NCBI RefSeq assembly: GCF_004745485.1
Contig: NZ_RHFG01000011.1
Location: 62,001 to 126,000 of the forward strand
Reading direction: 5' to 3'
Source: Brevibacterium sp. S22
Lineage (GTDB): Bacteria; Actinomycetota; Actinomycetes; Actinomycetales; Brevibacteriaceae
DNA length: 64,000 nucleotides
A program made the translations under genes and the position numbers. This document shows positions 30,245 to 46,898 of this stretch, in pieces (positions within the stretch are counted from its first letter, which is position 1; every line of letters starts with the position of its first letter). The notes below the pieces were generated by a model. The model did not search any database. It saw only the letters and a program-made list of their open reading frames with translations, and had not been told where the DNA came from.

Positions 30245-31326
30245 CGGCCTTCGCCTCCCTCTAACAGGCGCGTATCGGCAGTTTCGGGTGGACTGTCAGA
30301 TGATGACAAAGTCGACCCAGGCGGCTTGAAGAGCCAGTCCGGGCCCGAAATCCCGACATAGGAACTACAGGAAACCATGTTCCATACACGCTTGTACGTC
30401 TCCGTCTGCATCATGATCTCCGATTTCTTGATGCCGTCGATCGCTCCGAGAACATCTGTCATGAATGCGTGCATATCGGTGTGGTACCTCAGCACGAACT
30501 GTCCGACGAGGTTGTACCGTCCGGCCGTCGCAAAGAGAGTCTTGGTCTCCTTCATTGCCGCGAGTTCCGTACCGATGGCTGACAAACGAGAAGGTTCGAC
30601 ATTGAGCCACGCCCAAAAGGAGGTCTGAAAGCCCAACAGCTCAGGTTCGACAAGCACTCGGAAGGACACGACGTCCCGACTGATAAGGGACTCCAGGATT
30701 CGCCTTGCGGTACTCTCGGACTTCCCGATCGGCTCTGCCAAATCGCTCAGCGAGGTCCGTCCGTCTTCCAGCAGCAGTCCGAGCACAATCAATTCTTCAC
30801 GGGACAGCCGTGAACCCATTCTCTCCTGTCGGACGTCTATTTCGCGGTTCACTGTGTCAGGGAGCCAATCCTGGCCCGAAGTGTAAGTGTGGGTGACGAC
30901 GAACAGTTCCGCTTCAACGTCAAACTGCAGGGTGACCTCGTGGATTATGCGTTGCACTCCGACGAGTGACGGCATGACGATCTCGGCGACGCATCCCGCA
31001 GACCCTGCAACAGCAGCAACGTACCGCACATCCTGACGGGCCTGCAGCGATTTGAGGAAGTCCGGCCGCGATGAATCCCTCCCGCGGAATTGGACCATGA
31101 CGGGGACAGCGAGATCCAAGCCGGCGACATCCACTCGGCCGGTCACACGCAGACGCCCGTCACTGTGGAGCGATTCGAATCGCCGTCGGACAGTGCTCGT
31201 CGAACTGTTCGCCATTGCAGCAATGCTCGACCACGCTGCGCGCCCGTTCTTGTGGAGGGCGCGGACGATCTCCTGGTCGAGATCATCCAAGACCGACAAA
31301 CCTGACCCTTCAAGTGATGAACCCAT
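30238..31326 (-). CDS. Tandem-fused Lrp/AsnC-family regulator
   Basis: A 362-aa protein made of two Lrp units. Unit 1 has an HTH (LDQEIVRALHKNGRAAWSSI and STSTVRRRFESL, about residues 16-57) and an effector domain to about 150; unit 2 has a second HTH (IVLGLLLEDGRTSLSDLA and SESTARRILESL) and a second effector domain. Ordinary Lrp proteins are half this size. I chose ATG 31326 with AAGGA upstream; the longer frame crosses the promoter. The last 30 residues are Ser/Pro-rich. It is divergent from the ABC importer and probably controls that module in response to an amino acid. Confidence 0.82.
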   Translation of the reverse strand: MGSSLEGSGLSVLDDLDQEIVRALHKNGRAAWSSIAAMANSSTSTVRRRFESLHSDGRLRVTGRVDVAGLDLAVPVMVQFRGRDSSRPDFLKSLQARQDVRYVAAVAGSAGCVAEIVMPSLVGVQRIIHEVTLQFDVEAELFVVTHTYTSGQDWLPDTVNREIDVRQERMGSRLSREELIVLGLLLEDGRTSLSDLAEPIGKSESTARRILESLISRDVVSFRVLVEPELLGFQTSFWAWLNVEPSRLSAIGTELAAMKETKTLFATAGRYNLVGQFVLRYHTDMHAFMTDVLGAIDGIKKSEIMMQTETYKRVWNMVSCSSYVGISGPDWLFKPPGSTLSSSDSPPETADTRLLEGGEGRW

Positions 31327-31382
31327 TTGGTCATTTCCTTCATTTAGAACTACCTCTATGAACAAATATAGCGCACAAGCTC

Positions 31383-31412
31383 TTGACATGGCATAGATGC
31401 TCATAGTTGTAT
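31383..31412 (+). promoter_or_regulatory. Candidate promoter for the importer operon
   Basis: TTGACA at 31383-31388 and TTGTAT at 31407-31412 are 18 bp apart, about 80 bp upstream of the binding-protein start. The region between the divergent genes is AT-rich. Confidence 0.4.
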
Positions 31413-31494
31413 TTAGAGACAACGCCTCACGCCGAGTGCACCTGATGACTGATCGACCAATCAAAGACGATCCCGACCACAATCGAGGTAACCC

Positions 31495-32379
31495 ATGGCT
31501 GTATCCGCATTCGCGACGAAGGCAGTGTCTCGGACTGCTAAGATCGTCGCTCTCGCAGCATCTCTGGCTCTTGTCATGTCCGGCTGCTCAGCGGGTGACG
31601 AGAAGAGTACGGTCGCTGAAGACTGTGAGCCCACCGCTGAAGTCGACACGCTGCACAAGGGGAAACTCACAGTTCTCGTGGCCGAACATCCTCCTTTCGT
31701 CACCACCGAGAACGGAAACCTCACCGGCATCGAGGGTGAGCTCATCAACGAGGTCGCCTCAGATCTCTGCCTCGAAGTGGATTCCTCGACTACGTCGTTC
31801 TCTGCGGTCATCGAGGGCCTCCAGTCCGGCCGAGCTGATCTGTCAGCCGGAAACTGGACCGTCAACGACGAACGCAGAGAGCTCTTCGAAGTCAGTGATG
31901 GGCTGTACGAGGGAGGAATGGGGATCGTCACGCGCGGCGAAGAACTCACCGAAGTCGACTCGCTCAAGGGGAAGTCGCTGGGGACGCCGCAGGGATACCT
32001 ATGGATCGATCAGCTGCACAAGCTCTACGGCGATGACACCGTCCGAGAGTACCAGTCTGACAACGCAGTCCTCGACGATGTCAAAGCGAAGCGAATCGAC
32101 GTCGGAGTGGTCAGCATCCTCGCTAATACGTGGAGGCTCACACAGGACCAGTACTCCGATCTCAAGATCAACAAAATGCAGAACTCGCCCGATCTGCCAT
32201 ACACCCAAGCGCCACCCCTCTCGGTCGTCCTCGTCCAAAAGGGCAATACTGCCCTCAAGGACGCCACGAACCAGTCGATTGCTGACTATAAGGATTCGGG
32301 CGATATCGACAAGAGCTTCGAGAAATATGGCCTTGATCCAGCACTCGTGACACCCAACGACGGCTCAGACTCCAACTGA
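31495..32379 (+). CDS. Extracellular amino-acid-binding lipoprotein (SBP family 3)
   Basis: A 294-aa solute-binding protein. The signal peptide ends in the lipobox VMSGCS (lipidated Cys at about 31). The mature part has the family 3 pattern: LTVLVAEHPPFV, GIEGELINEVA, GRADLSAGNWTVNDERRELFEVSD, LKGKSLGTPQG. These bind amino acids or related amines outside the membrane for an ABC importer. GAGGT precedes the ATG. The ATPase and two permeases follow directly, so the transporter is complete. Confidence 0.9.
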   Translation: MAVSAFATKAVSRTAKIVALAASLALVMSGCSAGDEKSTVAEDCEPTAEVDTLHKGKLTVLVAEHPPFVTTENGNLTGIEGELINEVASDLCLEVDSSTTSFSAVIEGLQSGRADLSAGNWTVNDERRELFEVSDGLYEGGMGIVTRGEELTEVDSLKGKSLGTPQGYLWIDQLHKLYGDDTVREYQSDNAVLDDVKAKRIDVGVVSILANTWRLTQDQYSDLKINKMQNSPDLPYTQAPPLSVVLVQKGNTALKDATNQSIADYKDSGDIDKSFEKYGLDPALVTPNDGSDSN

Positions 32380-32409
32380 TCCAAGAGCAGACAGAGAGGA
32401 GTTCCGAGA

Positions 32410-33171
32410 ATGTCTGAGTCCCGAGTGTTGCTCGACGCAGAGTCTATCGAGAAGTCGTTCAAGGACAACGAGGTCCTAAAGGGGATCACCTTGGAGGTAC
32501 ATGCCGGCGAAGTGATAGCTCTCATCGGGCCAAGTGGAGCTGGCAAGAGCACGTTTCTCAGATGCCTCAACTATCTCGAGCGCCCGACCGGCGGAAGCCT
32601 GAGTCTTGACGGAGAGCCGGCGTTTACAGACCCGCTCAGGCCCTCGAAAGCGGAACTGCTCCGACTTCGGCGCCGAGTGGGAATGGTCTTCCAGACCTTC
32701 AACCTGTTTCCGCACTTAAGCGTCCTAAAGAACATTGTGCTTGCCCAGAAGCTCAATGGGCTGAGGAGCACTGGAGAAGCCGAAGAGTATGCACACGATC
32801 TACTTAGGCAAGTCGGGCTAGTCGACAAGGCACATGCCAAACCCGCAGAGTGCTCGGGCGGACAACAACAACGAATAGCTATTGCCCGGGCATTGTCTCT
32901 CGATCCCGAGCTCATGCTGTTCGACGAGCCCACATCTGCGCTTGACCCTGAAGTCGGAAACGATGTCCTCAAGGTCATGCGTGATCTGGCCGATCGCGGC
33001 ACCACCATGATCGTCGTCACGCACGAGATGAAGTTCGCGGAGCGCGTTGCCGATCGGGTCCTCCTGCTCGACCGCGGGAGCATCCTCGAAGAAGGTCCCC
33101 CGGAACAAGTATTCCGCAACCCTTCCCACGAGCGGACCCGTGACTTCCTCCAGGCGGTGCTCGACAGATGA
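32410..33171 (+). CDS. Amino-acid ABC transporter ATPase (GlnQ type)
   Basis: A 253-aa ATPase. Walker A GPSGAGKST, Q-loop FQTFNLFPHLSVLKN, signature CSGGQQQRIAIARAL, Walker B LMLFDEPTSALDPE and switch VTHE are all intact. The sequence matches polar amino-acid importers. It follows the binding protein by 30 bp and overlaps the first permease by ATGA. Confidence 0.92.
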   Translation: MSESRVLLDAESIEKSFKDNEVLKGITLEVHAGEVIALIGPSGAGKSTFLRCLNYLERPTGGSLSLDGEPAFTDPLRPSKAELLRLRRRVGMVFQTFNLFPHLSVLKNIVLAQKLNGLRSTGEAEEYAHDLLRQVGLVDKAHAKPAECSGGQQQRIAIARALSLDPELMLFDEPTSALDPEVGNDVLKVMRDLADRGTTMIVVTHEMKFAERVADRVLLLDRGSILEEGPPEQVFRNPSHERTRDFLQAVLDR

Positions 33172-33824
33172 GTGACTTCTCGTTCGTCTCTCTCCTGCAG
33201 ACTCTGTTTGCGGGATTGGGAATCACGATCCTCATGACTGTCGTCTCCTTCGCAGCCGGAACATTGCTCGGGATCCCCCTAGCGATCATGCGAACGTCGA
33301 AACGATGGACGGTGCGGGCTCCGGCAATGGCTGTCATCGACATCTCGCGTGGGATTCCTCCTCTCGTCTGGCTGCTCATCATCTACTACGGCGTCAGCCC
33401 GGTCCTGCCGCTCGAACCACTTCCGGCCGCCCTCATCGGCCTAAGTGTTATCTCAGCCGGCTATCTGGCAGAGAACTTCAGAGCGGGCATCGATAACGTC
33501 CATACAGGTCAGAAAGAAGCAGCTGCAGCACTGGGGCTCACTCCGAGCAATCAGTTCTGGCGGATTGTGGCACCGCAAGCGCTCAATATCTCGATCCCAC
33601 CCTCCGCCTCGTATGCGGTCGCCCTGCTCAAAGACACTGCCATCGCGTCGATCATCGGTGTCGCCGACATCATCTTCCTGGCGCAGAACGAGGTTTCGCG
33701 CGGCGGTTCGGCAGTCTTCGTGTTCGCTGTCGCGGCCGTGTTGTACCTCCTGGTAGGAATTCCCCTGTCGTACTTCTCACGTTTCATCGACGGCGTCGTA
33801 CGCTCAAAGGTGGTCTCGGTCTGA
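33168..33824 (+). CDS. Amino-acid ABC transporter permease 1
   Basis: A 218-aa HisM/GlnP-type permease with about five helices. The EAA loop (KEAAAALGLTPSNQFWRIVAPQALN) and DISRGIPPLVWL are conserved. Overlaps: ATGA with the ATPase and TGATG with the next permease. It forms a heterodimeric channel with the second permease. Confidence 0.9.
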   Translation: MSDFSFVSLLQTLFAGLGITILMTVVSFAAGTLLGIPLAIMRTSKRWTVRAPAMAVIDISRGIPPLVWLLIIYYGVSPVLPLEPLPAALIGLSVISAGYLAENFRAGIDNVHTGQKEAAAALGLTPSNQFWRIVAPQALNISIPPSASYAVALLKDTAIASIIGVADIIFLAQNEVSRGGSAVFVFAVAAVLYLLVGIPLSYFSRFIDGVVRSKVVSV

Positions 33825-34462
33825 TGTTCGATCACTGGCTCGAATGGCTGCCTCAGCTACTCAGCGGACTGGGGACCTCGCTACTTCTCACGGCATGCGT
33901 CGCCGTCATCGGCTTTCCGCTCGGCCTCATTCTTGGGCTCCTCAGCACTGCACCTAACCGCGCGGTCCGAGCGTTCTTTATCGCCTTCATCGAAGTGTTC
34001 CGGGGTATACCACTTCTCGCCGTAATCTATCTTCTGTACTTCGGGCTTCCTGCCGCAAACGTGACGATGACAGCCTTCGCCACAATAATCGTCGGGCACT
34101 CTCTTAACCTCGGTGCTTACTCCAGCGAAGTGTTCCGTGCTGGCGTCCTTCATGTCGGCAGCGGACAGCGTGAGGCCGCAGCGAGTCTGGGAATCACAGG
34201 GCGGAAGGCCTTCTTCCACGTCGTACTGCCTCAAGCCATGCGCGCCATTCCGGGACCGCTCATGTCGATGCTCATCATGGTGTTCCAATCGACATCGCTC
34301 GCATTCGCAATCGGTGTTTCGGAGATGACAAGCACAGCGTTCTCGATCGGCTCGATGACGTTCGAATATTTCAATGTGCTCGTTTTGGCGGGCCTGATCT
34401 ACGCCGTGCTCTGCATAGTCTCTGCACGCATCGTTGCTCGAGTAGAGGAGAAACTGAATTGA
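33824..34462 (+). CDS. Amino-acid ABC transporter permease 2
   Basis: A 212-aa partner permease. EVFRGIPLLAVIYLLYFGLP and the EAA loop REAAASLGITGRKAFFHVV are the family landmarks. It overlaps the next gene (TTGA), so importer and flavoenzymes are translated as one coupled operon. Confidence 0.9.
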   Translation: MFDHWLEWLPQLLSGLGTSLLLTACVAVIGFPLGLILGLLSTAPNRAVRAFFIAFIEVFRGIPLLAVIYLLYFGLPAANVTMTAFATIIVGHSLNLGAYSSEVFRAGVLHVGSGQREAAASLGITGRKAFFHVVLPQAMRAIPGPLMSMLIMVFQSTSLAFAIGVSEMTSTAFSIGSMTFEYFNVLVLAGLIYAVLCIVSARIVARVEEKLN

Positions 34463-36513
34463 GCACGGACCCTGGCACACCCAACATGGACAGTGTCCTC
34501 TTCACCCCGTTCTCGGTCGGCGGCGTGGAAGTCAAAAACCGAATAGTCAGCACCGCGCACTCGAATCGCTACACTCTCGGAGGACTGCCCACCTCACGCT
34601 ATCGCCGATACCAGGAGGAGAAAGCAAAAGGTGGTGTCGGGCTCATCACTATCGGCGGCTCCGCTGTCGTCAGCCGAGACAGCGCCCCCGCCTTCGGAAA
34701 CATCACGATGTATCGCGATGATGTCATCACACCTCTCAAGGAGATCGCTAGTGCCTGCCAGCAGCACGGAAGCAAAGTCTTCATTCAGCTCACTCACCTA
34801 GGCCGCAGGACCGGCGACCATGACTCCGACTGGCTACCTACAGTGTCCTCCGCTTCGATGAGGGAACCGGCCCATCGCTCATACCCGAAAGCAGCCGAGG
34901 CCTGGGACCTCGATCGCATCGTCGATGACTTCGTATCTGCCGCTCAGAGAGCTCGCGCTGCCGGTATCGATGGGATCGAACTCGAACACTATGGACATCT
35001 GCTCGATGCCTTCGCCTCCCCCTGGCACTTGTCACGACTTGGCCCTGACTCGCAGAAATTCGCTCGCGAGTTCCCCGGGCGAGTCATCAGGGCGGTCAAG
35101 AAGGTCACTGGGCTTGATATGGCTCTCGGTATAAGAATGTCGGTCGACGAACTGCGTGTGGACGGCCTCGAGCAAGAATCCGCTATAGCACTTCTGAATC
35201 AGTACATCGCCGACGGAATCGACTTCGTCAATGTCATAGTCGGCACCATCGAGTCTCAAGGGAAAATGACCGACGTCATTCCGGGATCAGGAAAATTGTC
35301 GGCACCTTTTCTCGACATTGTCGCAAATGTGAAGAGAACAGTGGACATCCCAGTCATCCATGCTGCGAAGATCGACGATTTTGCTACAGCGGAATACGCT
35401 GTCCAAGAAGGCAAACTCGATCTAGTGGGCATGACTCGAGCCAACATCGCCGATCCATATCTAGTCACGAAGGTCCAACAAGGTAAAGCAGACCAGATTC
35501 GGCCGTGCATCGGAGCAAGGCTCTGCTTGGAAGCCGGAAGCACCGGCGGAATGGTCTGCCTGCACAATCCAGCGGTCGGTCGCGAAGATATTCTGAAACA
35601 CGAAATCGACCGCAACGCCGAGAATCCCAAGAACGTCATCATCGTAGGAGCAGGTCCGGCAGGACTGGAAGCAGCACATGTCGCTGCCAAACGTGGACAC
35701 CGCGTCACAGTCCTCGAGGCTGCAGCCGAACCCGGGGGACAGATGGCGATGATCGCCCGCCTCCCGCGCAAACGGGAGTTCGGCGGAGCGGTCGACTGGC
35801 GCCTCTCCCAAGCTCTACAGCACGGTGCTGAGTTCAGATTCGATGTCTATGCCGAAGAGACCGATGTCCTCGACCTCTCGCCGGACACAGTCATCATCGC
35901 CACAGGGGGCATACCCCGCTCCGCTGCTGATGTCGGCATCAAGGGCGGGCACCTCATTCGCGACACTTGGGAGGCATTCGAAGCTTCCAGCAAGCAACTC
36001 GGCCACACCATCCTGTTCGACGATGAAGGTCGCTACTCCTCACTGGATGCTCTTGAGCACCTCGCCAACAATTCTGAACGGGTAACGTACGTGACACCGG
36101 AACGCACCCTTGGAATCGACGTCGGCACGCTGAATTTCGCCGATTACCAATCGGTCTTCGACACTCATCGAATCGATGTGAAGCTTGCCCGCTACGTAAT
36201 TTCGTCGGAGAGGAATCCTGACCGTACGTTTCGAATCGAGTTAGCCGGAGAATCGACAGACGTCCTAGAAACACTCGTTTGCGATGCTGTCTATTATTCG
36301 GGTGGGACCTGGCCGAACGACGAGCTCTATACCGCTCTCAGAGAGCATTCGTGCAACGACGGGCGGATCGACATCGAAGCCTTCGTCGGGGCGAAGCCGC
36401 AACCCAATACGGGGGCCTCCGGTTTCAGACTCTTCAGGGTCGGTGATGCTGTCTCCAGTAGAACCATCCATTCCGCGATACTCGACGCCCACCGCATCGC
36501 CCTGACTATCTGA
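34459..36513 (+). CDS. TMADH/dienoyl-CoA-reductase-like flavoprotein, probable N-demethylase or amine dehydrogenase
   Basis: A 684-aa enzyme. Residues 10-340 are an old-yellow-enzyme FMN barrel (FTPFSVGGVEVKNRIV, FIQLTHLGRR, GIDGIELEHYGHLLDAF). Residues about 390-680 are a FAD/NAD fold with GAGPAGLEAA. Between them lies CIGARLC...C, where trimethylamine dehydrogenase-type enzymes have CxxCxxC...C; the second cysteine is Ala here. As far as I recall, N-methylproline/stachydrine demethylases also carry this change. TTG start with GAGGAG upstream, overlapping the permease stop. Coupled to an amino-acid importer, oxidative demethylation of an imported N-methyl amino acid is likely, not proven. 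Confidence 0.78.
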   Translation: MSTDPGTPNMDSVLFTPFSVGGVEVKNRIVSTAHSNRYTLGGLPTSRYRRYQEEKAKGGVGLITIGGSAVVSRDSAPAFGNITMYRDDVITPLKEIASACQQHGSKVFIQLTHLGRRTGDHDSDWLPTVSSASMREPAHRSYPKAAEAWDLDRIVDDFVSAAQRARAAGIDGIELEHYGHLLDAFASPWHLSRLGPDSQKFAREFPGRVIRAVKKVTGLDMALGIRMSVDELRVDGLEQESAIALLNQYIADGIDFVNVIVGTIESQGKMTDVIPGSGKLSAPFLDIVANVKRTVDIPVIHAAKIDDFATAEYAVQEGKLDLVGMTRANIADPYLVTKVQQGKADQIRPCIGARLCLEAGSTGGMVCLHNPAVGREDILKHEIDRNAENPKNVIIVGAGPAGLEAAHVAAKRGHRVTVLEAAAEPGGQMAMIARLPRKREFGGAVDWRLSQALQHGAEFRFDVYAEETDVLDLSPDTVIIATGGIPRSAADVGIKGGHLIRDTWEAFEASSKQLGHTILFDDEGRYSSLDALEHLANNSERVTYVTPERTLGIDVGTLNFADYQSVFDTHRIDVKLARYVISSERNPDRTFRIELAGESTDVLETLVCDAVYYSGGTWPNDELYTALREHSCNDGRIDIEAFVGAKPQPNTGASGFRLFRVGDAVSSRTIHSAILDAHRIALTI

Positions 36514-36528
36514 ACTCGAGGCCATGCT

Positions 36529-37722
36529 ATGAAGATTGCAGTCATCGGACTCGGCGCAATAGGTGCCCAGATCTTTTGGAATCTCGCAAGAACTTCCGGG
36601 ATCGACGTTACCGGTTTCGAATCCGCTTATGTGGGGCACCCCTTTGCAGGGGCAGGCGGAGAAAGCCGGCTCTACCGGAATCTCGAGGTCGGTGACCTCG
36701 AATATGTTCCCGTCATCCGCCGCGCACAGCAGCTCTGGAACGAACTAGCTACCGAGTCGGACCGAAGTCTGCGCCGACTCACCGGCGTTCTGTTCATTGG
36801 CGAACCCGACAATCCTCAAGTGATCAACGCACTGGAGTCTGCGGCGATGCTCGATGCACCCCACGAGACACTCAACACTCGAGACATCGCCGAGCGTTTT
36901 CCACAGTTGTCCCCAGGCTACGAGGAGATCGGAATCTGGGATACCGAGGCTGGGGTCATCGATCCGGCAGCGACGGTCACCGCCGCAGTATCGCGCGGCG
37001 TTGCGCATGGCGGTGACGTTCGTGAGTACACACGTATCGATCGCCTCGAATCACGCGAGGCAGGGGTGCGACTGCATACCTCTCGAGGTTTCTTAGACTT
37101 CGACCGAGCAGTCGTCGCCTGCGGCGGATGGACGACGAAGCTCATACCCGACCTTCGAGATTCCGTCGTGTCGAAAAGGCTGACCTCTGCGTGGTTCGCA
37201 GGAACTGCTGACACTGCATTGTATGGTCTCCCACCCTTCATGCGTGCTGCGCCGCACTACTGCTACGGGATTCCGACGCCGGACGGGCTGACAGTCAAGC
37301 TCGGTCTTGGATTCAACGATCATTTGTCGACGGCAGACCCGGATACGGTCGAGCGTGACCTGCGAGGAAACGCCGCACGAATCGAAATCGACCGGTTCAA
37401 TCGCAAAATCGCCGACCTTCTGCCCGTTCTGCAACCAAACCCGGTGCGTCTTGACACGTATATCGAAAGCTATACGCGAACAATGCACGAACACATCCGA
37501 CTGCACCCGGACGACTCAAACATTGCCGTGTTGACCGGGTTCTCCGGGCATGGTTTCAAGATCAGTCCTGCAATCGGAGAGGCCGGTGCCCAGCTCATCA
37601 CCACGGGGCGCACAGATCTGGATCTGGAATTCCTCACAAGAGCTTCTCCACTCTTCGACATTGAAGATGCCTCCACCGGGATAACTACTCATAATCCACT
37701 CACTTCAAGCACACCCGTTTGA
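36529..37722 (+). CDS. FAD-dependent amine/amino-acid oxidase, MSOX/N-methyltryptophan-oxidase-like
   Basis: A 397-aa D-amino-acid-oxidase-fold protein. FAD motif GLGAIGAQIF (7-16), GGESRLYR near 42, VVACGGWTTKL and GFSGHGFKISPAIGE match monomeric sarcosine oxidase relatives. The cysteine that binds FAD covalently in those enzymes, in a C-L-Y-T motif, is not present; the aligned segment reads ESYTRTM. It would oxidise a secondary or primary amine, giving aldehyde or imine plus peroxide. It follows the TMADH-like gene by 15 bp; GAGG precedes the ATG. Confidence 0.82.
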   Translation: MKIAVIGLGAIGAQIFWNLARTSGIDVTGFESAYVGHPFAGAGGESRLYRNLEVGDLEYVPVIRRAQQLWNELATESDRSLRRLTGVLFIGEPDNPQVINALESAAMLDAPHETLNTRDIAERFPQLSPGYEEIGIWDTEAGVIDPAATVTAAVSRGVAHGGDVREYTRIDRLESREAGVRLHTSRGFLDFDRAVVACGGWTTKLIPDLRDSVVSKRLTSAWFAGTADTALYGLPPFMRAAPHYCYGIPTPDGLTVKLGLGFNDHLSTADPDTVERDLRGNAARIEIDRFNRKIADLLPVLQPNPVRLDTYIESYTRTMHEHIRLHPDDSNIAVLTGFSGHGFKISPAIGEAGAQLITTGRTDLDLEFLTRASPLFDIEDASTGITTHNPLTSSTPV

Positions 37723-37792
37723 ATAGACGCCGCGTTCGAACCAAACGAAATCCAGTAAGCCGCTCAATCTCTACTGAAACTAGGAGCATCTC

Positions 37793-38464
37793 TTGACCAT
37801 TCAGACGCCGATCGCCACATTCGACTGCTATCGCACGCTGGTCGACTTCGACCTGAACCGAGCGGCGCTGCCGATCGTTCAACACAGTTTGGACGAAGTC
37901 GGAGTCGACCACAATGAATTTCTCGACAACTTGCGCGTCGCACGCTTCTACGCTGTCGCGCAGGGTCCTTATACCCGGTATCAGGATCTCATACGGAAGA
38001 CGCTGGAGACGACGATGCTTCAGCACGGGGCACCGTATGACAACGCCTACGGTGACCAATTGGTGGAGGATGCGAAGAGCTTTCCCGTCTTTCCCGAGGT
38101 GCCCTCGGCGCTGCGCGCGCTCAAAGAGAAGGGAGTCGAGTTGGCTATCATCTCCAACTCGGACCGAGACTTCATTTCCCATCACGTCGCGACCATCGGT
38201 GTGGAGTTTGATTTCGTCATCACTGCCGAGGACGCGGGCTGGTACAAGCCCCGAGACGGTGCCTTCAACCATCTCTTCCGGACCATCGATCGAGATCCTG
38301 CATTTATCACCCACGTCGCTCAAGGCTGGGAATACGACATCATGCCGGCTAAGAAGTACGACGTCCGGCGAATCTGGGTAAACAGGTACAACAGGCCCGG
38401 AAGCAACTTCTATCAGCCGTATGTCGAAATTCCTGACCTTTCTGAGCTTCCGGATCATTTCTGA
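37793..38464 (+). CDS. HAD-superfamily hydrolase (haloacid-dehalogenase type)
   Basis: A 223-aa hydrolase. Motif I FDCYRTL (nucleophile Asp10, but with Cys in place of the usual Asp acid two residues on), motif II ISNSD, lysine in GWYKPRD and a late GWEYDIMPAKK. The pattern is closer to 2-haloacid dehalogenases than to phosphatases. TTG start with AGGAG about 6 nt upstream. It is the last gene of the importer/flavoenzyme module; its substrate is unclear. Confidence 0.8.
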   Translation: MTIQTPIATFDCYRTLVDFDLNRAALPIVQHSLDEVGVDHNEFLDNLRVARFYAVAQGPYTRYQDLIRKTLETTMLQHGAPYDNAYGDQLVEDAKSFPVFPEVPSALRALKEKGVELAIISNSDRDFISHHVATIGVEFDFVITAEDAGWYKPRDGAFNHLFRTIDRDPAFITHVAQGWEYDIMPAKKYDVRRIWVNRYNRPGSNFYQPYVEIPDLSELPDHF

Positions 38465-38591: not shown

Positions 38592-38810
38592 CTACATGTT
38601 TGACGCCAGACTGAGCCTCATCTTGATGACGAGAACGTGGACTATGCCGTGTTCGCGGCCGAGGCCGAAGTCGGTCTTGATCCAATCGAAAAATTCGGCA
38701 GCTTTGACCGAGTCAGCGTACTTGTCGCACTGCATAGCCATATAGATGGACTCGCATGGAGTATGGCCTGTCTTGTCTTCAAACGTGTCGAGAGAGGTCC
38801 CGAACGACAT
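38592..38810 (-). CDS. Small DUF4287-like protein
   Basis: A 72-aa protein. LDTFEDKTGHTP and the later KAAEFFDWIKTDFGLGREHG match the pattern of the DUF4287 family (K-T-G-x-x-P ... W-L/I-K-x-D-x-G-L-G-x-x-H). Function of the family is unknown. AAAGGA lies about 9 nt upstream of the ATG on the minus strand. It sits alone between the HAD gene and the stress-protein gene; flanking bases hold no other gene. Confidence 0.6.
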   Translation of the reverse strand: MSFGTSLDTFEDKTGHTPCESIYMAMQCDKYADSVKAAEFFDWIKTDFGLGREHGIVHVLVIKMRLSLASNM

Positions 38811-40059: not shown

Positions 40060-40389
40060 ATGGATGAAGAAACGACCGTCACTGTCAACGACATCCCCGA
40101 AGGGGCCGCCATCGTCGACGTCCGCGAGGACGATGAGTGGGAGGCCGGGCACATCGAGGGCGCGATCCACATGCCGCTGGGCGAGCTGCCGACGCGCCTC
40201 GACGACCTTCCCCTCGATGACGATATGTACGTCATCTGCCGCACAGGCGGACGTTCGAACCGAGCCGTGGCGTGGCTCAACCAGAATGGCTTCGACGCCT
40301 TCGACGTCGCCGGCGGCATGGGGTCGTGGAACCTCGACAACGGCAAGCCGATCGTCTCCGAGACCGGCGAGGAGCCTTGGGTGAAGTGA
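40060..40389 (+). CDS. Rhodanese-like sulfurtransferase domain protein
   Basis: A 109-aa single rhodanese domain. DVREDDEWEAGHIEGAIHMPL and the active-site loop ICRTGGRS (catalytic Cys at about 67) are clear. Such small proteins transfer sulfane sulfur from thiosulfate or persulfides. GAGG precedes the ATG. Its last 38 bp plus 21 bp after the stop are repeated at 42812-42870. Confidence 0.88.
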   Translation: MDEETTVTVNDIPEGAAIVDVREDDEWEAGHIEGAIHMPLGELPTRLDDLPLDDDMYVICRTGGRSNRAVAWLNQNGFDAFDVAGGMGSWNLDNGKPIVSETGEEPWVK

Positions 40390-40410
40390 CGGGTTCGGGC
40401 CGCTGACCGT
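40352..40410. repeat. Rhodanese gene tail, original copy of repeat R
   Basis: Aligns without gaps to 42812-42870 over 59 bp with about five or six differences (roughly 90% identity by eye). It spans the stop codon and ends GGGCCGCTGACCGT, after which the two loci differ completely. Confidence 0.85.
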
Positions 40411-40510
40411 ATGCGGCTGAGGACGCCCGCTCTCGAGACAGGAGTCTCGACACGACAGCGAGCGCCAGGCTGCGGGCGTGCAGACCATCGCTCGTCTGTT
40501 TGCTTTCGCG

Positions 40511-40858
40511 TCAGAGTTCGGTTGTGTCGCTTCCGCCGCCCGCGCGCTGACCGGTCACCTTGGACTTGACGATCCGGGCCACGGCGGAGAGCTTTTAGCC
40601 CGTGAGGCCCCGTGCTGCGCGGAGTCGCTCGTGACCTTATAAGGCGAGGTTCGGGTCGTTGCGTCCCTGTTCAAACCACGCGACGACGGAATCGTCCCAG
40701 AGTTCGTCGACCTTGGAACCGTCGTCGACGAATTCGACGCGGTCGGCGACCGAGAGCCAATTGCCCGCCTCGGCGACGGCGCTGTTGACAAACGGATTCG
40801 TCCGCAATGCTGTCGCCTGGTCGCCGTGCAGGTCGAGGAAGCACCACAGCATCGGCAC
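40511..40858 (-). pseudogene. Truncated, frameshifted copy of the GSP26-like gene
   Basis: The minus strand reads WCFLDLHGDQATALRTNP... and NWLSVADRVEFVDDGSKVDELWDDS, matching the C-terminal half of the stress protein at 38992-39840. The frame then breaks near 40640 and again near 40590; the end in another frame is IVKSKVTGQRAGGG...TTEL and a stop, as in the intact gene. The 5' half is missing: homology ends abruptly at about 40860. It is a dead gene fragment next to the rhodanese tail. Confidence 0.8.
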
Positions 40859-40976
40859 ATGCCCTCAGTTCCACAACAAGAGTTGTTTCATGAGGGACGT
40901 TATCCCAGTTCTCACAGGAGCCGCAGCGCCTTGCCATCGGCTGCGGATATCGAGACGGCCCCTCCACGCACCGAGG

Positions 40977-42005
40977 TCAGAGTCGAATATCTCTAAGCCG
41001 TGGAAGACTGGACCAGATGCTGGCCGTGTAGTTCGGGTCGAAGATCGCGTGGTAGCCGCCGGTGTGCCAGAAGAGCACCGGCCCCTCAAGCGTGCGCCGG
41101 CGCGCCATATCGATGATTGCCGCGACTGCTTTCGCCGTGTAGACAGGGTCGACGACAATTCCCTCGAGCCTGGACATCAGATCGATGGCTTCGCTGACGC
41201 CGGCAGCGGGCTCTCCGTAACCTTCGCCGAGATAATCCTCTGTCGTCTCCAAGTCCGACGGAGCGATAGTGACTTCCGGCGCGACGAGCGCTGCGGCCTC
41301 GTTGGCCAGCCGGAGGTAGTTACCGGGGACATCATCGTAGACCTCACCGGCGACGATGACACCGAGGATGCGGGTCGTTGACTGGCTGATTGCTCGGCCG
41401 AGGGTGAGGCCGGCATGCGTGCTTCCGGCGGAGCTCGCGTGCACAATGGTGGAAAATTGCGAACCCTGTGCTCGAATCTGCTCATCGGCTTCGATGTAGG
41501 CGCGGGCAAAGCTGGTCGCACCGCGGCCGGTCGCTGAGCCTATGGGAAGCCGATAGACACTCTCGCCGGTGTCTTCCAACTCCCTGACAACATCCTCGGT
41601 ACGGCGGGCAAGCTCCACCCACGAGATATCGCCGACAAGGCGGAGGTCGGCTCCGAAGAGCGCGTCGAGAAGCAGATTTCCGACGGGTTCTTTCGGCTCA
41701 TCGTGGCACAGCACCAGCGTGCACTTCATCCCGATCGCGGCTGCCGCAGCCGCGGCAGCCCGGGTGGCGTTGGAATGACGGGAGCCTTCTGTGACGATAT
41801 GGGTCGCACCCAGGGACTGCGCATGAGCGAGCTCCATCTCGAGCTTGCGAACCTTATTTCCCGCAAGCCCCACTGAACCCAGGTCGTCGCGCTTCGCCCA
41901 CACCTCGATGTCGAGCTCTTCGCTGAGCCGGGACAGGAACTGCACGGGCGAGGTGAATCCGCGGAGGTCGATGCGCGGCAGGTCGTTCATCTGTGATCCA
42001 GTCAT
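40977..42005 (-). CDS. D-cysteine desulfhydrase / ACC-deaminase family PLP enzyme
   Basis: A 342-aa fold-type II PLP enzyme. The Schiff-base lysine lies in LAGNKVRKLE; TEGSRHSNATRAAA contacts cofactor phosphate or substrate; HASSAGSTHAGLTLG is the glycine-rich phosphate loop; VLFWHTGG is near the end. Family members deaminate D-cysteine or 1-aminocyclopropane-1-carboxylate. ATG 42005 (MTGSQ) was chosen; a second ATG is 5 codons on, and neither has a strong ribosome site. Divergent from the Lrp gene, a common arrangement for amino-acid enzymes and their regulator. Confidence 0.83.
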   Translation of the reverse strand: MTGSQMNDLPRIDLRGFTSPVQFLSRLSEELDIEVWAKRDDLGSVGLAGNKVRKLEMELAHAQSLGATHIVTEGSRHSNATRAAAAAAAAIGMKCTLVLCHDEPKEPVGNLLLDALFGADLRLVGDISWVELARRTEDVVRELEDTGESVYRLPIGSATGRGATSFARAYIEADEQIRAQGSQFSTIVHASSAGSTHAGLTLGRAISQSTTRILGVIVAGEVYDDVPGNYLRLANEAAALVAPEVTIAPSDLETTEDYLGEGYGEPAAGVSEAIDLMSRLEGIVVDPVYTAKAVAAIIDMARRRTLEGPVLFWHTGGYHAIFDPNYTASIWSSLPRLRDIRL

Positions 42006-42107
42006 ACCGCCAGACAGTAGACACAAGTTTCCACCTGCACAACCAATACAACTTCGAGTGTGCATCTGCTCAGTCCGACTAGACCATAGGCATGTACTGT
42101 TGATCAT

Positions 42108-42581
42108 ATGTATAGCCTTGACGCGACTGACGCTCGAATACTGCTAGCCAGGGACAGCTCCCTGGATTCTCCTCTGGTCGAATTGAGCAACCGCTTGGGA
42201 CTGTCGCGGAACACCGTGCACGCTCGCTTGAAACGCCTCCGCCGCACCGGCGCCCTCGGATCACCCAGCGCCACACTCTCGCCATCGAGTCTCGAGCGAC
42301 CGCTCATCGCCTTTGTCACGCTCTCGGTGTCACAGCAGCTCATCGACTCCGTCTACGAAGCAATCGCTGGAATTCCCGAAGTCATCGAGGCCCACACCAC
42401 CACCGGTGAAGCCGACCTCATGCTTCGTGTGATCGCTCGGGACACAGTCGATCTTCACCGGATCACTCAGAGCATTCAGCTGGCGCCTGGGGTCCAGCGA
42501 AGCAGCACATGTGTAGCGACGACGGAAGTAATCTCCTACCGGATGTCACCGCTGCTCGACCAACTCGCAACAGGGAACTGA
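42108..42581 (+). CDS. Lrp/AsnC-family regulator
   Basis: A 157-aa regulator: HTH about residues 5-50 (LVELSNRLGLSRNTVHARLKRL) and a RAM effector domain about 65-140 (AFVTLSVSQQ, GEADLMLRVIA). No ribosome site precedes the ATG, so the mRNA may be leaderless. It is divergent from the PLP enzyme and separated by 102 bp, so it probably controls that gene. Confidence 0.87.
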   Translation: MYSLDATDARILLARDSSLDSPLVELSNRLGLSRNTVHARLKRLRRTGALGSPSATLSPSSLERPLIAFVTLSVSQQLIDSVYEAIAGIPEVIEAHTTTGEADLMLRVIARDTVDLHRITQSIQLAPGVQRSSTCVATTEVISYRMSPLLDQLATGN

Positions 42582-42636
42582 ACGCCGGGCGGAATCCAAA
42601 CGCCCCCGGGTTGCTCCGCGCGATCACTCGCCTGTG

Positions 42637-42815
42637 TAGCCCTCCTCGGCGGGGTCCGGGATCTCATCGGGCCGATACTTCGGCAGCCGAGAAGCCGGCA
42701 CTGCCGCGACCAGGCTGATCCCGGCAAGGATGAGGAACCCGAGCTTGAGCGTGCGCAGGGGCTGCTGAGAGTTCAGCTCGACGGCATTTTCGACCTGCTC
42801 CGGCGTCGCCGTCGT
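42637..42815. repeat. Copy of the MFS gene tail (repeat M)
   Basis: Aligns without gaps to 45271-45449 over 179 bp with six differences that I can count (about 97% identity). It carries the last 59 codons of the MFS gene, on the minus strand, without the rest of the gene. Homology ends exactly where repeat R begins, with TCGT shared at the junction. Confidence 0.9.
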
Positions 42816-42870
42816 CTCCGAGACCGGCGAAGAGCCCTGGGTGAAGTGACGACTTGGGGCCGCTGACCGT
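42812..42870. repeat. Copy of the rhodanese gene tail (repeat R)
   Basis: A 59-bp near-copy of 40352-40410, including the rhodanese stop codon, fused directly to repeat M. The fusion joins two gene tails that are otherwise 4.9 kb apart. Confidence 0.85.
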
Positions 42871-42922
42871 GTGAGGTTCGTCGACCTCTACCCACCCCGG
42901 CTCGACTGTCTGTAGCGTCGCG

Positions 42923-43972
42923 ATGGCCAACAGGCAGTCGAGCCGATTTCGTTGCGGCTGCCGTCTCCAACACCGGAACGGGGTCAGCTCACGCGTGGCG
43001 AACTCGCTGTCGAAATCGCTTGGCCGCAGAGAACGGCCAGTTCTTCTCTCTGTCATCGGCGTGCTCATCATCGTCGTCATTGTTCAGGCAGTCGCACCCA
43101 CGTTGCTCCACGATGAGGATCCGGCACCGACGATGACAATCGGTTCAGCCACACAGCTCGTTGACGAGCTCTCATCTCAAGGATGGGACTGCTTCGATTC
43201 GGACGGCGATGCTCAACTGAAACGGTGCTTTGCGAACGACATCCACGAAGCGACTGCCTCGGTGTCGGTCCTATCCAAAGATGATGCGGTGGCCATGATC
43301 AAGGCCGAGGCCTCAGGCTCGGACAGTGATGCGATCGACGGCACCCTCGCCACTGCGGTCGAGTCGATGGACAAGGCGCTTCTCCCCTCAGGCGAAGAAC
43401 CGATCAAGGGGCTGATGAACGGCAAGGCTTTCGAAGCGCAGGAGCTGCCCGGTGGCGTGCTGGTCGAAACCGCCCCGAGCTCCATCAAGATTCTCAACGG
43501 CAAGGATGGCGGCGCTTCGGCAAGCACCGTCTACCAACCGAAGGCTCTCCCCCTGCCGGATCAACAGGCATTCGGTCTCGAACAGAATGGCTTCACCTGC
43601 CACAGCGAATTCGACACCCGATGCGACGCCGAGCTCGACGGCGTCGACGCCTCGATCAGCCAAGGAGTTCGGCCCATCGACCCGCACATGATCGAGGTGC
43701 GCCTCGACCATGTCGACGAGGCCACGACAGGTAGTCAGTCGAAGGCTTCGAATGCCCAGGAACAACTCGGCAAGATTCTCGCTGATGACGCAGTGGGCCT
43801 CACCGATACAGCCGGCGCGAAGTTCCTCGCCCATGACGCCGAGACCGGAAACCAAGGAGACTTCGCCGGTTATGAGATGACAGTCATCACCGGCGTCGAC
43901 GATGACAGCGGTTCGATCACACTCGAGTTCACCTCCATAGTGCCCGAAGCCACGCCCGCTTTCGCTTGGTGA
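42923..43972 (+). CDS. Membrane-anchored extracytoplasmic protein, unknown family
   Basis: A 349-aa frame; the start is uncertain (ATG 42923 lacks a ribosome site, and GTG 42995 is an alternative). One membrane helix (about residues 40-60) follows a basic stretch, so the rest is outside the cell. The outside part holds two related units, each with L-x5-G-W/F-D/T-C and a second cysteine 8-11 residues on (CFDSDGDAQLKRC and CHSEFDTRC), probably disulfides. Rich in Asp, Ser and Ala. No family recognised. It begins just after the chimeric repeat, in accessory module B. Confidence 0.6.
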   Translation: MANRQSSRFRCGCRLQHRNGVSSRVANSLSKSLGRRERPVLLSVIGVLIIVVIVQAVAPTLLHDEDPAPTMTIGSATQLVDELSSQGWDCFDSDGDAQLKRCFANDIHEATASVSVLSKDDAVAMIKAEASGSDSDAIDGTLATAVESMDKALLPSGEEPIKGLMNGKAFEAQELPGGVLVETAPSSIKILNGKDGGASASTVYQPKALPLPDQQAFGLEQNGFTCHSEFDTRCDAELDGVDASISQGVRPIDPHMIEVRLDHVDEATTGSQSKASNAQEQLGKILADDAVGLTDTAGAKFLAHDAETGNQGDFAGYEMTVITGVDDDSGSITLEFTSIVPEATPAFAW

Positions 43973-44232
43973 AAAGACATGGTTCTGACCAGCATCAGAC
44001 ATTGATATGGCAACTTACCCGTATCCGATTCAGGCCCTTGGCACTATCGTTGCGGAGCTCGACGATTCGTGTGAGTACTGAACTAAGTTTCTCACGTGCC
44101 CAGAGAGCTGTCGTCACGGTCTGTGCCGACAAGGCAGTGGCCAATACAGCATCGCCAGTGACGTCAGAGTCATCCTGTGCGGGAAAGAGCTTGTCCCCGC
44201 CTGGAGCTGCCGAGTGTGGGAAATTGATTAAC

Positions 44233-44251
44233 TTAACCTACCCTTACCTAA
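44233..44251. promoter_or_regulatory. DtxR/IdeR-type iron box
   Basis: TTAACCTACCCTTACCTAA resembles the 19-bp DtxR/IdeR consensus, with an excellent right half (TTACCTAA) and a weaker left half. It lies 13 bp upstream of the siderophore-interacting protein start, overlapping the expected promoter. Iron-dependent repression is likely. Confidence 0.65.
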
Positions 44252-44264
44252 GTAAGATGTGGTC

Positions 44265-45158
44265 ATGGATTCAATCAAGTCTGCAATTCGGGAAATCGGT
44301 CGACAGCGACCGCTGATCACGATGAATCTCGATGTCCTCGACGTCACCGATGTGTCTTTCGGGTTTCGCCGCCTGACCTTGCATGGACATGAAATCGATG
44401 AGTATTCCGATCCTCGCGCAGCGGATGCCTTCAAGGTCATGATTCCTCCCCTCGACGCCCTCGACCGCCGATCACATGCTCCTGTGCGGGACGCCCAGGG
44501 CCTGCCGACCTGGCCCGGGCAACAGGATCCGCTGCTCCGTGCCCTGACCGTCAGGAGTCTCGATCGTGCCCGACGGCTCATGACCGTCGACGTGTCCAGC
44601 CACTCCGATGGCCTGCTCAACCTCTGGCTTTCCGCGCTGTCGCCAGGCGACACCGTGTCTATCAGCGGGATGCGCGCGGAGTGGTACCTGCCGGCGGAGA
44701 TTGAGCAATTGGTGCTGATTGCCGACGACGCTGGAGCACCTGCGCTGGCATCGATCATCGAAGCGCTGCCCACCGAGACCGCCTCGACTCACACTCACAT
44801 CATTGCGCCGGAGTCGACGCGTGACTATTTAGGAGCGGCCGGGACAGAAGGGTCGAACTCTGCCGTGACATTCGTGCCGAGTCTGACTGATCTCAAGGCA
44901 GAGGGGATCGTGGGCAACGGTGCCCGATCGCAGGTATGGATCGCCGCCGAGACTTCCACTGTCCGCACACTGCGCTCCGTGGCGAAGTACGACTGGAACG
45001 TGAACACTCAGGATCTGCTGGCTCGCGCATACTGGCACCGAGGCCTGAGCGGCACCGATGTTGATGCCCGCGACCTCGAGCGCTACCGGAAGGCATTGGA
45101 CGAGGGTGCAGATATGCACAGCCCGCAGCTTGCAGAGGACATCAGCCTGAACGACTGA
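44265..45158 (+). CDS. Siderophore-interacting protein (SIP family ferric-siderophore reductase)
   Basis: A 297-aa FAD-binding reductase that releases iron from imported siderophores in the cytoplasm. An N-terminal barrel contains LTVRSLDRARRLMTVDVSSHSDG and LSPGDTVSISGMR; the C-terminal part has LVLIADDAGAPALASIIEALP and ends with a YWHRGLSG segment. ATG 44265 was preferred over GTG 44259; no ribosome site is present, so a leaderless transcript is possible. A DtxR-like box lies just upstream. No siderophore transporter is nearby. Confidence 0.83.
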   Translation: MDSIKSAIREIGRQRPLITMNLDVLDVTDVSFGFRRLTLHGHEIDEYSDPRAADAFKVMIPPLDALDRRSHAPVRDAQGLPTWPGQQDPLLRALTVRSLDRARRLMTVDVSSHSDGLLNLWLSALSPGDTVSISGMRAEWYLPAEIEQLVLIADDAGAPALASIIEALPTETASTHTHIIAPESTRDYLGAAGTEGSNSAVTFVPSLTDLKAEGIVGNGARSQVWIAAETSTVRTLRSVAKYDWNVNTQDLLARAYWHRGLSGTDVDARDLERYRKALDEGADMHSPQLAEDISLND

Positions 45159-45195
45159 CAGCCGGGAGAGAACCGAGCATACACGTCGAGTTGGT

Positions 45196-45229
45196 GGATC
45201 GCTTCATACCAAGGGGATCACTTCATACC
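45196..45229. repeat. Short direct repeat
   Basis: GGATC(G/A)CTTCATACC occurs at 45196-45210 and 45215-45229, between the SIP gene and the MFS tail. Function unknown. Confidence 0.4.
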
Positions 45230-45269
45230 GTCTGGGGCGATGTCGCCCCCTTCCGGATGGACCGGAACT

Positions 45270-46898
45270 CTAGCCCTCCTCGGCGGGGTCCGGGATCTCA
45301 TCGGGCCGATACTTCGGCAGCCGAGAAGCCGGCACTGCCGCGACCAGGCTGATCCCGGCAAGGATGAGGAACCCGAGCTTGAGCGTGCGCAGCCGCTGTT
45401 GAGAGTTCAGCTCGACGGCATGCTCGACCTGCTCCGGTGTCGCCGTCGTGCCTGCGAGCACCTCCCGCAGTTCGTCGTTGCTCACGAAGTTCGCGTTGTC
45501 GAGGTCGACCTGCTCGACGAGCTCCGGCGGCAGTTCGGGATGATCATCGGCGGCCGACGCCAAGCCGGCCGAAAGCACCGTGACCAGCAGAGCCCCCATC
45601 ACCGCGGTGCCGACAGCCGAGGCGAGATTCTGCGCGGTGCCGCGAATCGACCCGACATCACCGGCCAGATGCTTCGGCGCGGCCGTGACCAGAACATTGA
45701 ACACCAGTGTCACCAGCGCACCCTGCCCGATGCCGAAGACGATGAGGCCGAGAATCGTCGGCAGAGTCTCCCAATTGTTCGTCACGACGAACGCGAGCCA
45801 GACAAGCGCGGCGGTCGTCAGCCCGAACGAGAACAGTGCGATGGAGCGCGGCGAGTATCGCTTGTAGAAGCGGATGATGAGTGTGGCGGTGACGAACACT
45901 GTCAGGTTGAACGGCAGCATCGCCAACGACGTGTCGAAAGGGGTCCTCCCCTGCACGACCTGGATGTAGGTGGGCACGGTGAAGTTCACCGCCGCCTCCA
46001 TGGCCACGATGACGAACATCGCATAGACCGCCGCCCGTTCGCTCGGCCGACCGAGCACGCTGATGTCGACGAGAGGCACCTTCCCCGCCGCCTTCCGTCG
46101 CTTCGTCCACACGAAGAACAGCTGCCCGAGGACGACGCCGACGACGATGAACACCGGCGCCGGGGACAGCCCGGCGATCGAGAACGGCGCCCCATCCTCG
46201 GCGCGGATGACACCCCACCCGTTGAGGTTGTTGAACCCCATCGTCAGCAGCACGACCGCCGCACCGATGAGCGCCGAGGCGACGAGGTCGATCCGGATCG
46301 CCGCGTCGCCCTTGTCCGACTTCAGCGTGAACGTCAGCGCGAAGACGATGACAGCCAGGCCCAGCGTGATGAAGAAGATCGGCCGCCACCCGACGAACGT
46401 GCCCAAGGTGCCGCCGATGAGGAAGGCGCTCATCCCGGAGAAGGCTCGCGCCGAGCCGAGCGAGCCGACCGCCGCGGCCTGCTGGGCGCCGCGGTAGTTC
46501 TCCGCGATGAGCGCGACCAGGGCGGGCACGATGATCGCGGCGGCAGCACCGGCGAGCAGCTGACCGGCGATGACCCAGGTCACGGTGCGAGAGAAGATCA
46601 TGAGCAGCGAGGAGGCCGCGAAGACGACGAGGACGATGCGGAAGATGAGCACCCACCCGATCCGCTGACCCAGCTTCGCACCGGTCATCACGAATGCCGC
46701 GACAGCGAGGCCGTAGACGACGATCGTCGACGAGGCGACCGTGGGCGGAACCCCGAAGTCCTCGACCATTCCGCCGAGCGAGATCGGCAGTGCGGCGACG
46801 TTGAAGGACATGAGGACCTGAGCGAGGAAGAGCCCGATCATCGGCGCCCAAGATCTGCGCTCCTCGGTGTCGGCAGTCGATCCGGTGGCGGTGTTCAT
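45270..46898 (-). CDS. MFS transporter (drug/metabolite type)
   Basis: A 542-aa transporter with about fourteen hydrophobic segments. SFNVAALPISLGGMVEDF in helix 1, GAKLGQRIGWVL in loop 2-3 and a long C-terminal extracytoplasmic or cytoplasmic region (ADDHPELPPELVEQVDLDNANF) before a last helix resemble the DHA2/14-helix group. Its ATG overlaps the glutaminase stop by one base, so it may move a glutamine-derived product or work in acid tolerance; that is inference. Its 3' end is duplicated at 42637-42815. Confidence 0.82.
   Translation of the reverse strand: MNTATGSTADTEERRSWAPMIGLFLAQVLMSFNVAALPISLGGMVEDFGVPPTVASSTIVVYGLAVAAFVMTGAKLGQRIGWVLIFRIVLVVFAASSLLMIFSRTVTWVIAGQLLAGAAAAIIVPALVALIAENYRGAQQAAAVGSLGSARAFSGMSAFLIGGTLGTFVGWRPIFFITLGLAVIVFALTFTLKSDKGDAAIRIDLVASALIGAAVVLLTMGFNNLNGWGVIRAEDGAPFSIAGLSPAPVFIVVGVVLGQLFFVWTKRRKAAGKVPLVDISVLGRPSERAAVYAMFVIVAMEAAVNFTVPTYIQVVQGRTPFDTSLAMLPFNLTVFVTATLIIRFYKRYSPRSIALFSFGLTTAALVWLAFVVTNNWETLPTILGLIVFGIGQGALVTLVFNVLVTAAPKHLAGDVGSIRGTAQNLASAVGTAVMGALLVTVLSAGLASAADDHPELPPELVEQVDLDNANFVSNDELREVLAGTTATPEQVEHAVELNSQQRLRTLKLGFLILAGISLVAAVPASRLPKYRPDEIPDPAEEG
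45271..45449. repeat. MFS gene tail, original copy of repeat M
   Basis: Partner of 42637-42815 (179 bp, about 97% identity). Differences are at six positions, several of them synonymous in the MFS reading frame. Confidence 0.9.

Follow-up and report, generated by a model that had tools for sequence, protein, structure and literature searches.

How did two sets of accessory genes come to lie side by side between the same pair of flanking genes in Brevibacterium sp. S22 (genome G000), separated by a fusion of those flanking genes' own 3' ends? The locus lies in a window of 64,000 nucleotides (62001-126000 of contig C5, NZ_RHFG01000011.1) and is contained in this single contig of an assembly with 72 contigs, completeness 100 and contamination 0.14%. 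Between a rhodanese gene (R) and a convergent major facilitator superfamily (MFS) gene we find module A, a copy of the MFS 3' end (M') joined to a copy of the rhodanese 3' end (R'), module B, and the true MFS 3' end (M), so that the order R-A-M'R'-B-M given by an earlier sequence-only reading is what the contig carries. We conclude that the locus is very probably a stack of the modules of two alternative haplotypes, R-A-M and R-B-M.

The flanking copies are clearly defined. M' and M form a 179-nt direct repeat of 97% identity with six differences (columns 123, 124, 129, 152, 153 and 168), exactly the length and count read from the sequence earlier, and the 59 bp then assigned to R' proved slightly short, as the match between the R tail and R' covers 65 nt (89% identity, seven differences). 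Only 2 of the 38 coding positions in this match differ, and the longest identical run between R and R' is at most 19 bp. The borders of the inserted DNA follow one pattern: M' and M surround R'-B, R and R' surround A-M', and one copy of each pair is shortened. The R end is duplicated and no loss of DNA is visible, a comparison made without a parent strain.

At their joint M' and R' overlap by TCGT only. In 20,000 simulated random joints between the rhodanese and MFS genes of the locus, 2.9% shared four or more bases; the overlap, correctly noted in the earlier reading, therefore points to end-joining but falls short of proof. Two long (>150 bp) MFS-end matches occur in G000 alone among 57 genomes of the genus, and the M'-R' joint was found nowhere else in this set. 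A viral contig contained a 21-base pattern of the joint, but its match to the window extended over only 22 bp and was set aside as chance.

The other two joints have a different distribution. We compared the stretch around R in 40 of the 56 relatives, all of them species other than that of G000, and this sample underlies most site comparisons below. The DNA following R is shared only with G003 and G024, both of which carry an A-type second stress gene between R and the MFS gene, as does Brevibacterium oceani L016 (possibly the same genome as G024). The stress-gene fragment of module A is 87% identical to the second stress gene of G024 and 85% to that of G003, versus 73% to G000's own first copy, which lies left of R. 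The DNA following R' is clearly shared only with G039, where the membrane-protein gene stands behind R (window 42871-43974, 76%), and with G018, which has only the 110 bp of leader before the B gene (42872-42981, 83%). No A-side match was detected in G018 or G039 and no B-side match in G003 or G024. Scored against 40 shuffles, the 150 bp after R exceeded all of them only in G003 and G024, and the 150 bp after R' lay far above them only in G018 and G039; G006, G042 and G035 topped the best shuffle by three points (28 versus 25), which we take as noise.

Because each matches different species, the R-A and R'-B joints are old, separate and inherited, and since a second long MFS end is confined to G000 among the 57 genomes, only the M'-R' joint is new. 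These results support the two-haplotype stacking proposed from the sequence. They disfavor the alternative offered with it, in which an R-X-M unit was duplicated in tandem in a single genome and the contents of the two copies were later replaced or lost. A duplication ending at M-R would create the M'R' joint and would explain why M and M' are 97% alike, but later loss would then have to recreate two joints that are shared with different species, and no remnant of A was seen beside R' nor of B beside R. We consider this history very unlikely.

We asked what the same site holds in the relatives. The rhodanese gene has a match in all 57 genomes, and a long MFS-end match is present in 14 of the 56 relatives, downstream of R in every case. 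In eight of them R and the MFS gene are less than 400 bp apart (R stop to MFS match: G021, 38 bp; G052, 64; G029 and G036, 79 each; G027, 85; G053, 207; G032, 291; G002, 362), and R adjoining M is thus the plain state of the site. Larger intervals occur in G018 (479 bp), G024 (1241 bp), G003 (2150 bp) and G039 (2617 bp) and, with other cargo, in G056 (5858 bp) and G046 (10178 bp). Pieces of 54-66 bp of a glutaminase gene (PF04960), a neighbor of the site, remain behind R without an MFS gene in G014, G048, G009, G026, G043 and G019 (stretches L150, L151, L152, L153, L158 and L163), and MFS-end pieces are retained in G045, G044 and G005, which suggests that the MFS-glutaminase block was lost in these genomes.

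The sequence-only reading had looked to related strains for single modules, or for other gene sets, between the same two tails. Other sets do occur (G056 and G046), next to the eight near-empty sites; of the single modules only the inner layer was recovered, as the A-type gene in G003 and G024 and the B gene in G039, and the outer layers encoding the pyridoxal phosphate (PLP) enzyme, the Lrp regulator and the siderophore-interacting protein (SIP) were not found at the site in the 40 relatives fetched. An arrangement identical in all relatives, which that reading had named as fatal to it, is not what we see, M'-R' being confined to G000. Across the 56 relatives, every match to the PLP-Lrp part of A is shorter than 100 bp, and a sample of 296 other genomes of the order gave no match to its PLP enzyme at 1e-60; the nearest named relatives of this enzyme are from Microbacterium (84%). 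The SIP gene is 86% identical to one in G041 and 73% to one in G046, both on contigs other than that of R, and five of the scored candidates, not counting the query, are relatives of the membrane protein, the sole named one being from Brevibacterium siliguriense. The protein cluster of the PLP enzyme (P0007) draws on 13 contigs and that of the membrane protein (P0001) on 2. Since the inner layer alone recurs in relatives (for A the second stress gene, for B the membrane protein), each module was likely built up in steps. A plasmid origin was considered and rejected: matches were found in 22 of 72,556 plasmid records, all at 60-80% identity and none covering 80% of the query, and the ten matches listed fall in the MFS part only.

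Which module arrived second can be approached through the repeats. Counted from the stop-codon end, no difference separates M and M' in the first 122 bp, and 6 of the remaining 57 positions differ, a rate close to that of R and R' overall (7/65). The MFS ends of ten genomes, compared in 45 pairs, served as a baseline, with 284 of 1168 differences falling in the last 58 columns; assuming independence, the chance of finding all six M/M' differences at the far end is 0.0002, and it is 0.0008 with 105 pairs from 15 genomes and 0.004 without the fast first 15 columns. This pattern fits a crossover in the MFS end between donor and recipient sequences that differed by about 10%, which is the divergence of the MFS gene between G000 and its relatives. 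The R end would have been the poorer crossover site, because R and R' lack an identical run longer than 19 bp. From the sequence we infer that B rather than A is favored as the newcomer.

The earlier proposal ran in the opposite direction, with a closed R'-A-M' piece entering a resident R-B-M locus by a crossover in the rhodanese end. It would yield the same order from two older haplotypes that both exist in relatives, and the shortened R' of a second case in G005 and G046, described below, is as expected from a crossover in R. In that case differences between M and M' would be expected throughout the 179 bp, yet the first 122 are identical, and the recombining ends would have shared 65 rather than 179 bp, broken into runs of no more than 19. 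We regard this direction as unlikely.

We lean slightly toward a specific route in which one crossover between MFS ends brought a closed R'-B-M piece in beside a resident R-A-M. The incoming piece, from a related species, would have carried a rhodanese end, module B and an MFS end; its broken ends would have been joined at TCGT to give a circular molecule. RecA-type recombination would have paired the incoming with the resident MFS end, and one crossover would have kept the full R, module A and a full MFS gene, with M'R' remaining as a scar. No integrase would be required, and the insertion would part neither gene from its promoter because R and the MFS gene converge. The G000 genome contains a Ku gene and a ComEC-type gene, so that end-joining and DNA uptake would be possible.

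A linear piece could instead have been captured by homology-facilitated illegitimate recombination, one end pairing with the chromosome and the other joined at TCGT. This process has been put forward for stacked modules in Vibrio (PMC5361080), and the four-base overlap falls within the 3-10 common bases of most such joints as summarized in passages of Amarir-Bouhram, Goin and Petit (2011, PMC3240628). The same passages describe a general deletion of recipient DNA, however, whereas the G000 locus has gained a second copy of part of R and shows no loss. Given this duplication without visible loss we prefer the circular route and judge the linear one quite improbable.

Several observations weigh against a circle carrying B and recombining in the MFS end. 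The circle itself is inferred, not observed. The MFS ends of the sister species G027 and G039 contain a 113-bp identical run despite 14 differences, so that tracts of this kind are not unique to M and M', and M and M' could equally have acquired an identical tract through gene conversion at a later time. Two of the six changes in M' alter amino acids (R to P and H to N) and occur in few if any other genomes, as expected if M' decayed after the event. The tree of the 179-bp MFS ends is too short to decide, as 9 of 13 inner branches are open and M and M' are not separated. The coding part of R and R' differs at only 2 of 38 positions, and the genes for the PLP enzyme, Lrp and SIP do not appear at the site in the relatives compared. 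Recent allele exchange between G027 and G039 was considered as the source of their 113-bp run, but the pair is close across the whole 5-kb stretch compared, which leaves this idea with little weight.

A second case occurs at the same site. In G046 and G005 a full R is followed by about 9.3 kb, a shortened and internally deleted R', and then native downstream DNA. The insert of G046 encodes a solute-binding protein, an ATP-binding cassette (ABC) ATPase and permease, a flavin mononucleotide (FMN) oxidoreductase, a DAO-type oxidase and a HAD hydrolase. G044 represents the empty site, being 96% identical to G005 as far as 9 bp beyond the R stop, with the match resuming inside R'. This is the same signature as in G000 with different cargo and a different break point, and the three genomes record at least two events because G046 and G005 share theirs.

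The two cases also bear on whether the locus was misassembled, or whether a site-specific recombinase acting on the rhodanese end moved an element here. The 72 contigs and the repeats at the joint, the R-tail copies bordering inserts in three genomes, and transposase genes in the G003 interval and near R in G053 could all be read this way. A repeat-caused error would run M' into more MFS sequence, not into R', and contamination is 0.14%; no recombinase is present among the scanned genes of the site in G000, and R' starts at base 293 of R in G000 but at 113 in G046 and 116 in G005. Such differing start points speak against a fixed attachment site, and we consider either explanation extremely unlikely.

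The neighborhood as a whole is plastic. The distance from R to pgm ranges from 97 to 12,998 bp and fills 21 size classes of 200 bp (40 genomes, compared across species, not strains). The corresponding values are 366-1219 bp and 5 classes from the stress gene to R (28 genomes) and 70-312 bp and 2 classes from X1 to X2 (33 genomes), with 14 classes from pgm to X1 (31 genomes), 11 from X2 to X3 (20) and 7 from U to the stress gene (26). Of the six intervals measured, R to pgm thus varies most, but others vary too. G003 has a DUF4096 IS4/5-type transposase gene between R and M (L164 12463-12867) and G053 has an rve-domain gene just left of R (L156 14533-15789), indicating that transposable elements also visit the neighborhood. 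In the window itself, the DNA left of the stress gene carries at 29325-38462 a 9.1-kb set of genes for a transporter, an FMN oxidoreductase, a DAO-type oxidase and a HAD hydrolase, collinear with the G046/G005 insert between R and R' at about 73-74% identity; at 38592-38810 an apparently decayed DUF4287-like frame matches, at 69% over 196 bp, the intact DUF4287 gene behind R' in G046.

Tentatively, the convergent R and MFS ends may serve in Brevibacterium as an integrase-free docking site that captures end-joined circles of DNA from related species additively by one crossover, each capture leaving a readable shortened copy of a flank, although we hold this broader claim to be doubtful. If it were true, the order and direction of arrivals could be read from sequence.

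The coordinates of the locus are collected in Table 1. Pfam profile matches agree with the gene content that had been read from the sequence for both modules, and the membrane-anchored protein of module B has no Pfam match. Each module likely carries its own control, with Lrp beside the PLP enzyme in A and, before the SIP gene in B, an AT-rich candidate stretch (44228-44257) that we take to resemble an iron-regulator box.

Table 1. Features of the locus from left to right, in window coordinates.
Feature	Position	Strand	Evidence
R, intact rhodanese gene, left flank	40060..40389	+	PF00581; match in 57/57 genus genomes
R tail, source of the R' copy	40352..40416	+	89% over 65 nt
A-type DNA after R	40390..40554		Homologous after R only in G003, G024 (40 relatives)
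Module A, decayed second stress gene fragment	40555..40860	-	
Module A, PLP enzyme, ACC deaminase / D-cysteine desulfhydrase-like, start codon uncertain	40977..41993	-	PF00291; names of near relatives
Module A, Lrp/AsnC regulator, divergent from PLP gene	42108..42581	+	PF01037, PF13404
M', copy of MFS 3' end	42637..42815	-	97% to 45271-45449
TCGT common to M' and R' at joint	42812..42815		
R', copy of rhodanese 3' end	42812..42876	+	Match to 40352-40416
B-type leader after R'	42872..42981		83% behind R in G018; in G039, first part of a 1.1-kb match (76%) behind R
Module B, membrane-anchored protein of unknown function	42995..43972	+	Reading frame open from 42923; ~76% DNA identity behind R in G039
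Module B, siderophore-interacting protein (SIP)	44265..45158	+	PF08021, PF04954
M, 3' end of the intact MFS gene, repeated as M'	45271..45449	-	97% to M'
Intact MFS gene, right flank	45270..46898	-	PF07690

Many turnover hotspots carry no mobile-element genes, and at stake is how such hotspots grow, as opposed to swapping their content. Here two alternative contents have been combined by addition; the scar can still be read, a crossover tract is likely, and each older joint survives in relatives. If the account is true, additive integrase-free capture becomes directly testable by sequencing strains from a small number of species. Laboratory work has produced events of this kind, and to our knowledge no natural fossil of such a capture has been described. 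Judged by title, none of the papers found on rhodanese with integration hotspots, convergent genes or Brevibacterium concerns such a site, and we found no literature match for single-crossover capture of this kind. The Brevibacterium genome papers searched mention neither rhodanese, glutaminase or phosphoglucomutase nor a hotspot.

The closest parallel is the conjugation assay with cut plasmid DNA in E. coli of PMC3240628, where, in the experiments cited, 56 of 60 clones had a duplicated homologous end (by PCR; 14 were sequenced), read as degradation, recircularization and a single crossover, and 4 of 60 arose by homology-facilitated illegitimate recombination, three of them with no shared joint bases. 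Circle integration there and the G000 locus share an intact and a shortened homologous end around the insert, duplication in place of loss, and a new joint with little or no homology. They differ in that the former involved laboratory plasmids, whereas here we have a natural chromosome, a donor and recipient that would be of different species, and a scar that fuses both flanking genes. The stacked effector-immunity modules of Vibrio cholerae, for which PMC5361080 proposes homology-facilitated illegitimate recombination, are similar in that modules were added beside older ones with few shared joint bases and no integrase found; there the older effectors were displaced and immunity genes kept, whereas in G000 both modules stay, along with a flanking-gene copy, and no recipient loss is seen.

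Among the hotspots of Oliveira et al. (2017, PMC5635113), 27% are reported to be without integrases and transposases, and double crossover in flanking core genes is suggested for them. The G000 site resembles these in its variable content between conserved flanks, and no integrase is present among its scanned genes, though the G003 interval does contain a transposase gene. The suggested double crossover would swap content, and strains of one species are the unit there, whereas here content has been added, with a scar, and species are compared. Finally, transformation-made tandem duplications in Streptococcus pneumoniae, as outlined in PMC3784515, span about 100 to 900 kb and arise by unequal crossover between repeats. 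There too recombination between copies duplicates parts of the chromosome, whereas the duplication in G000 involves a few kilobases and a non-homologous joint.

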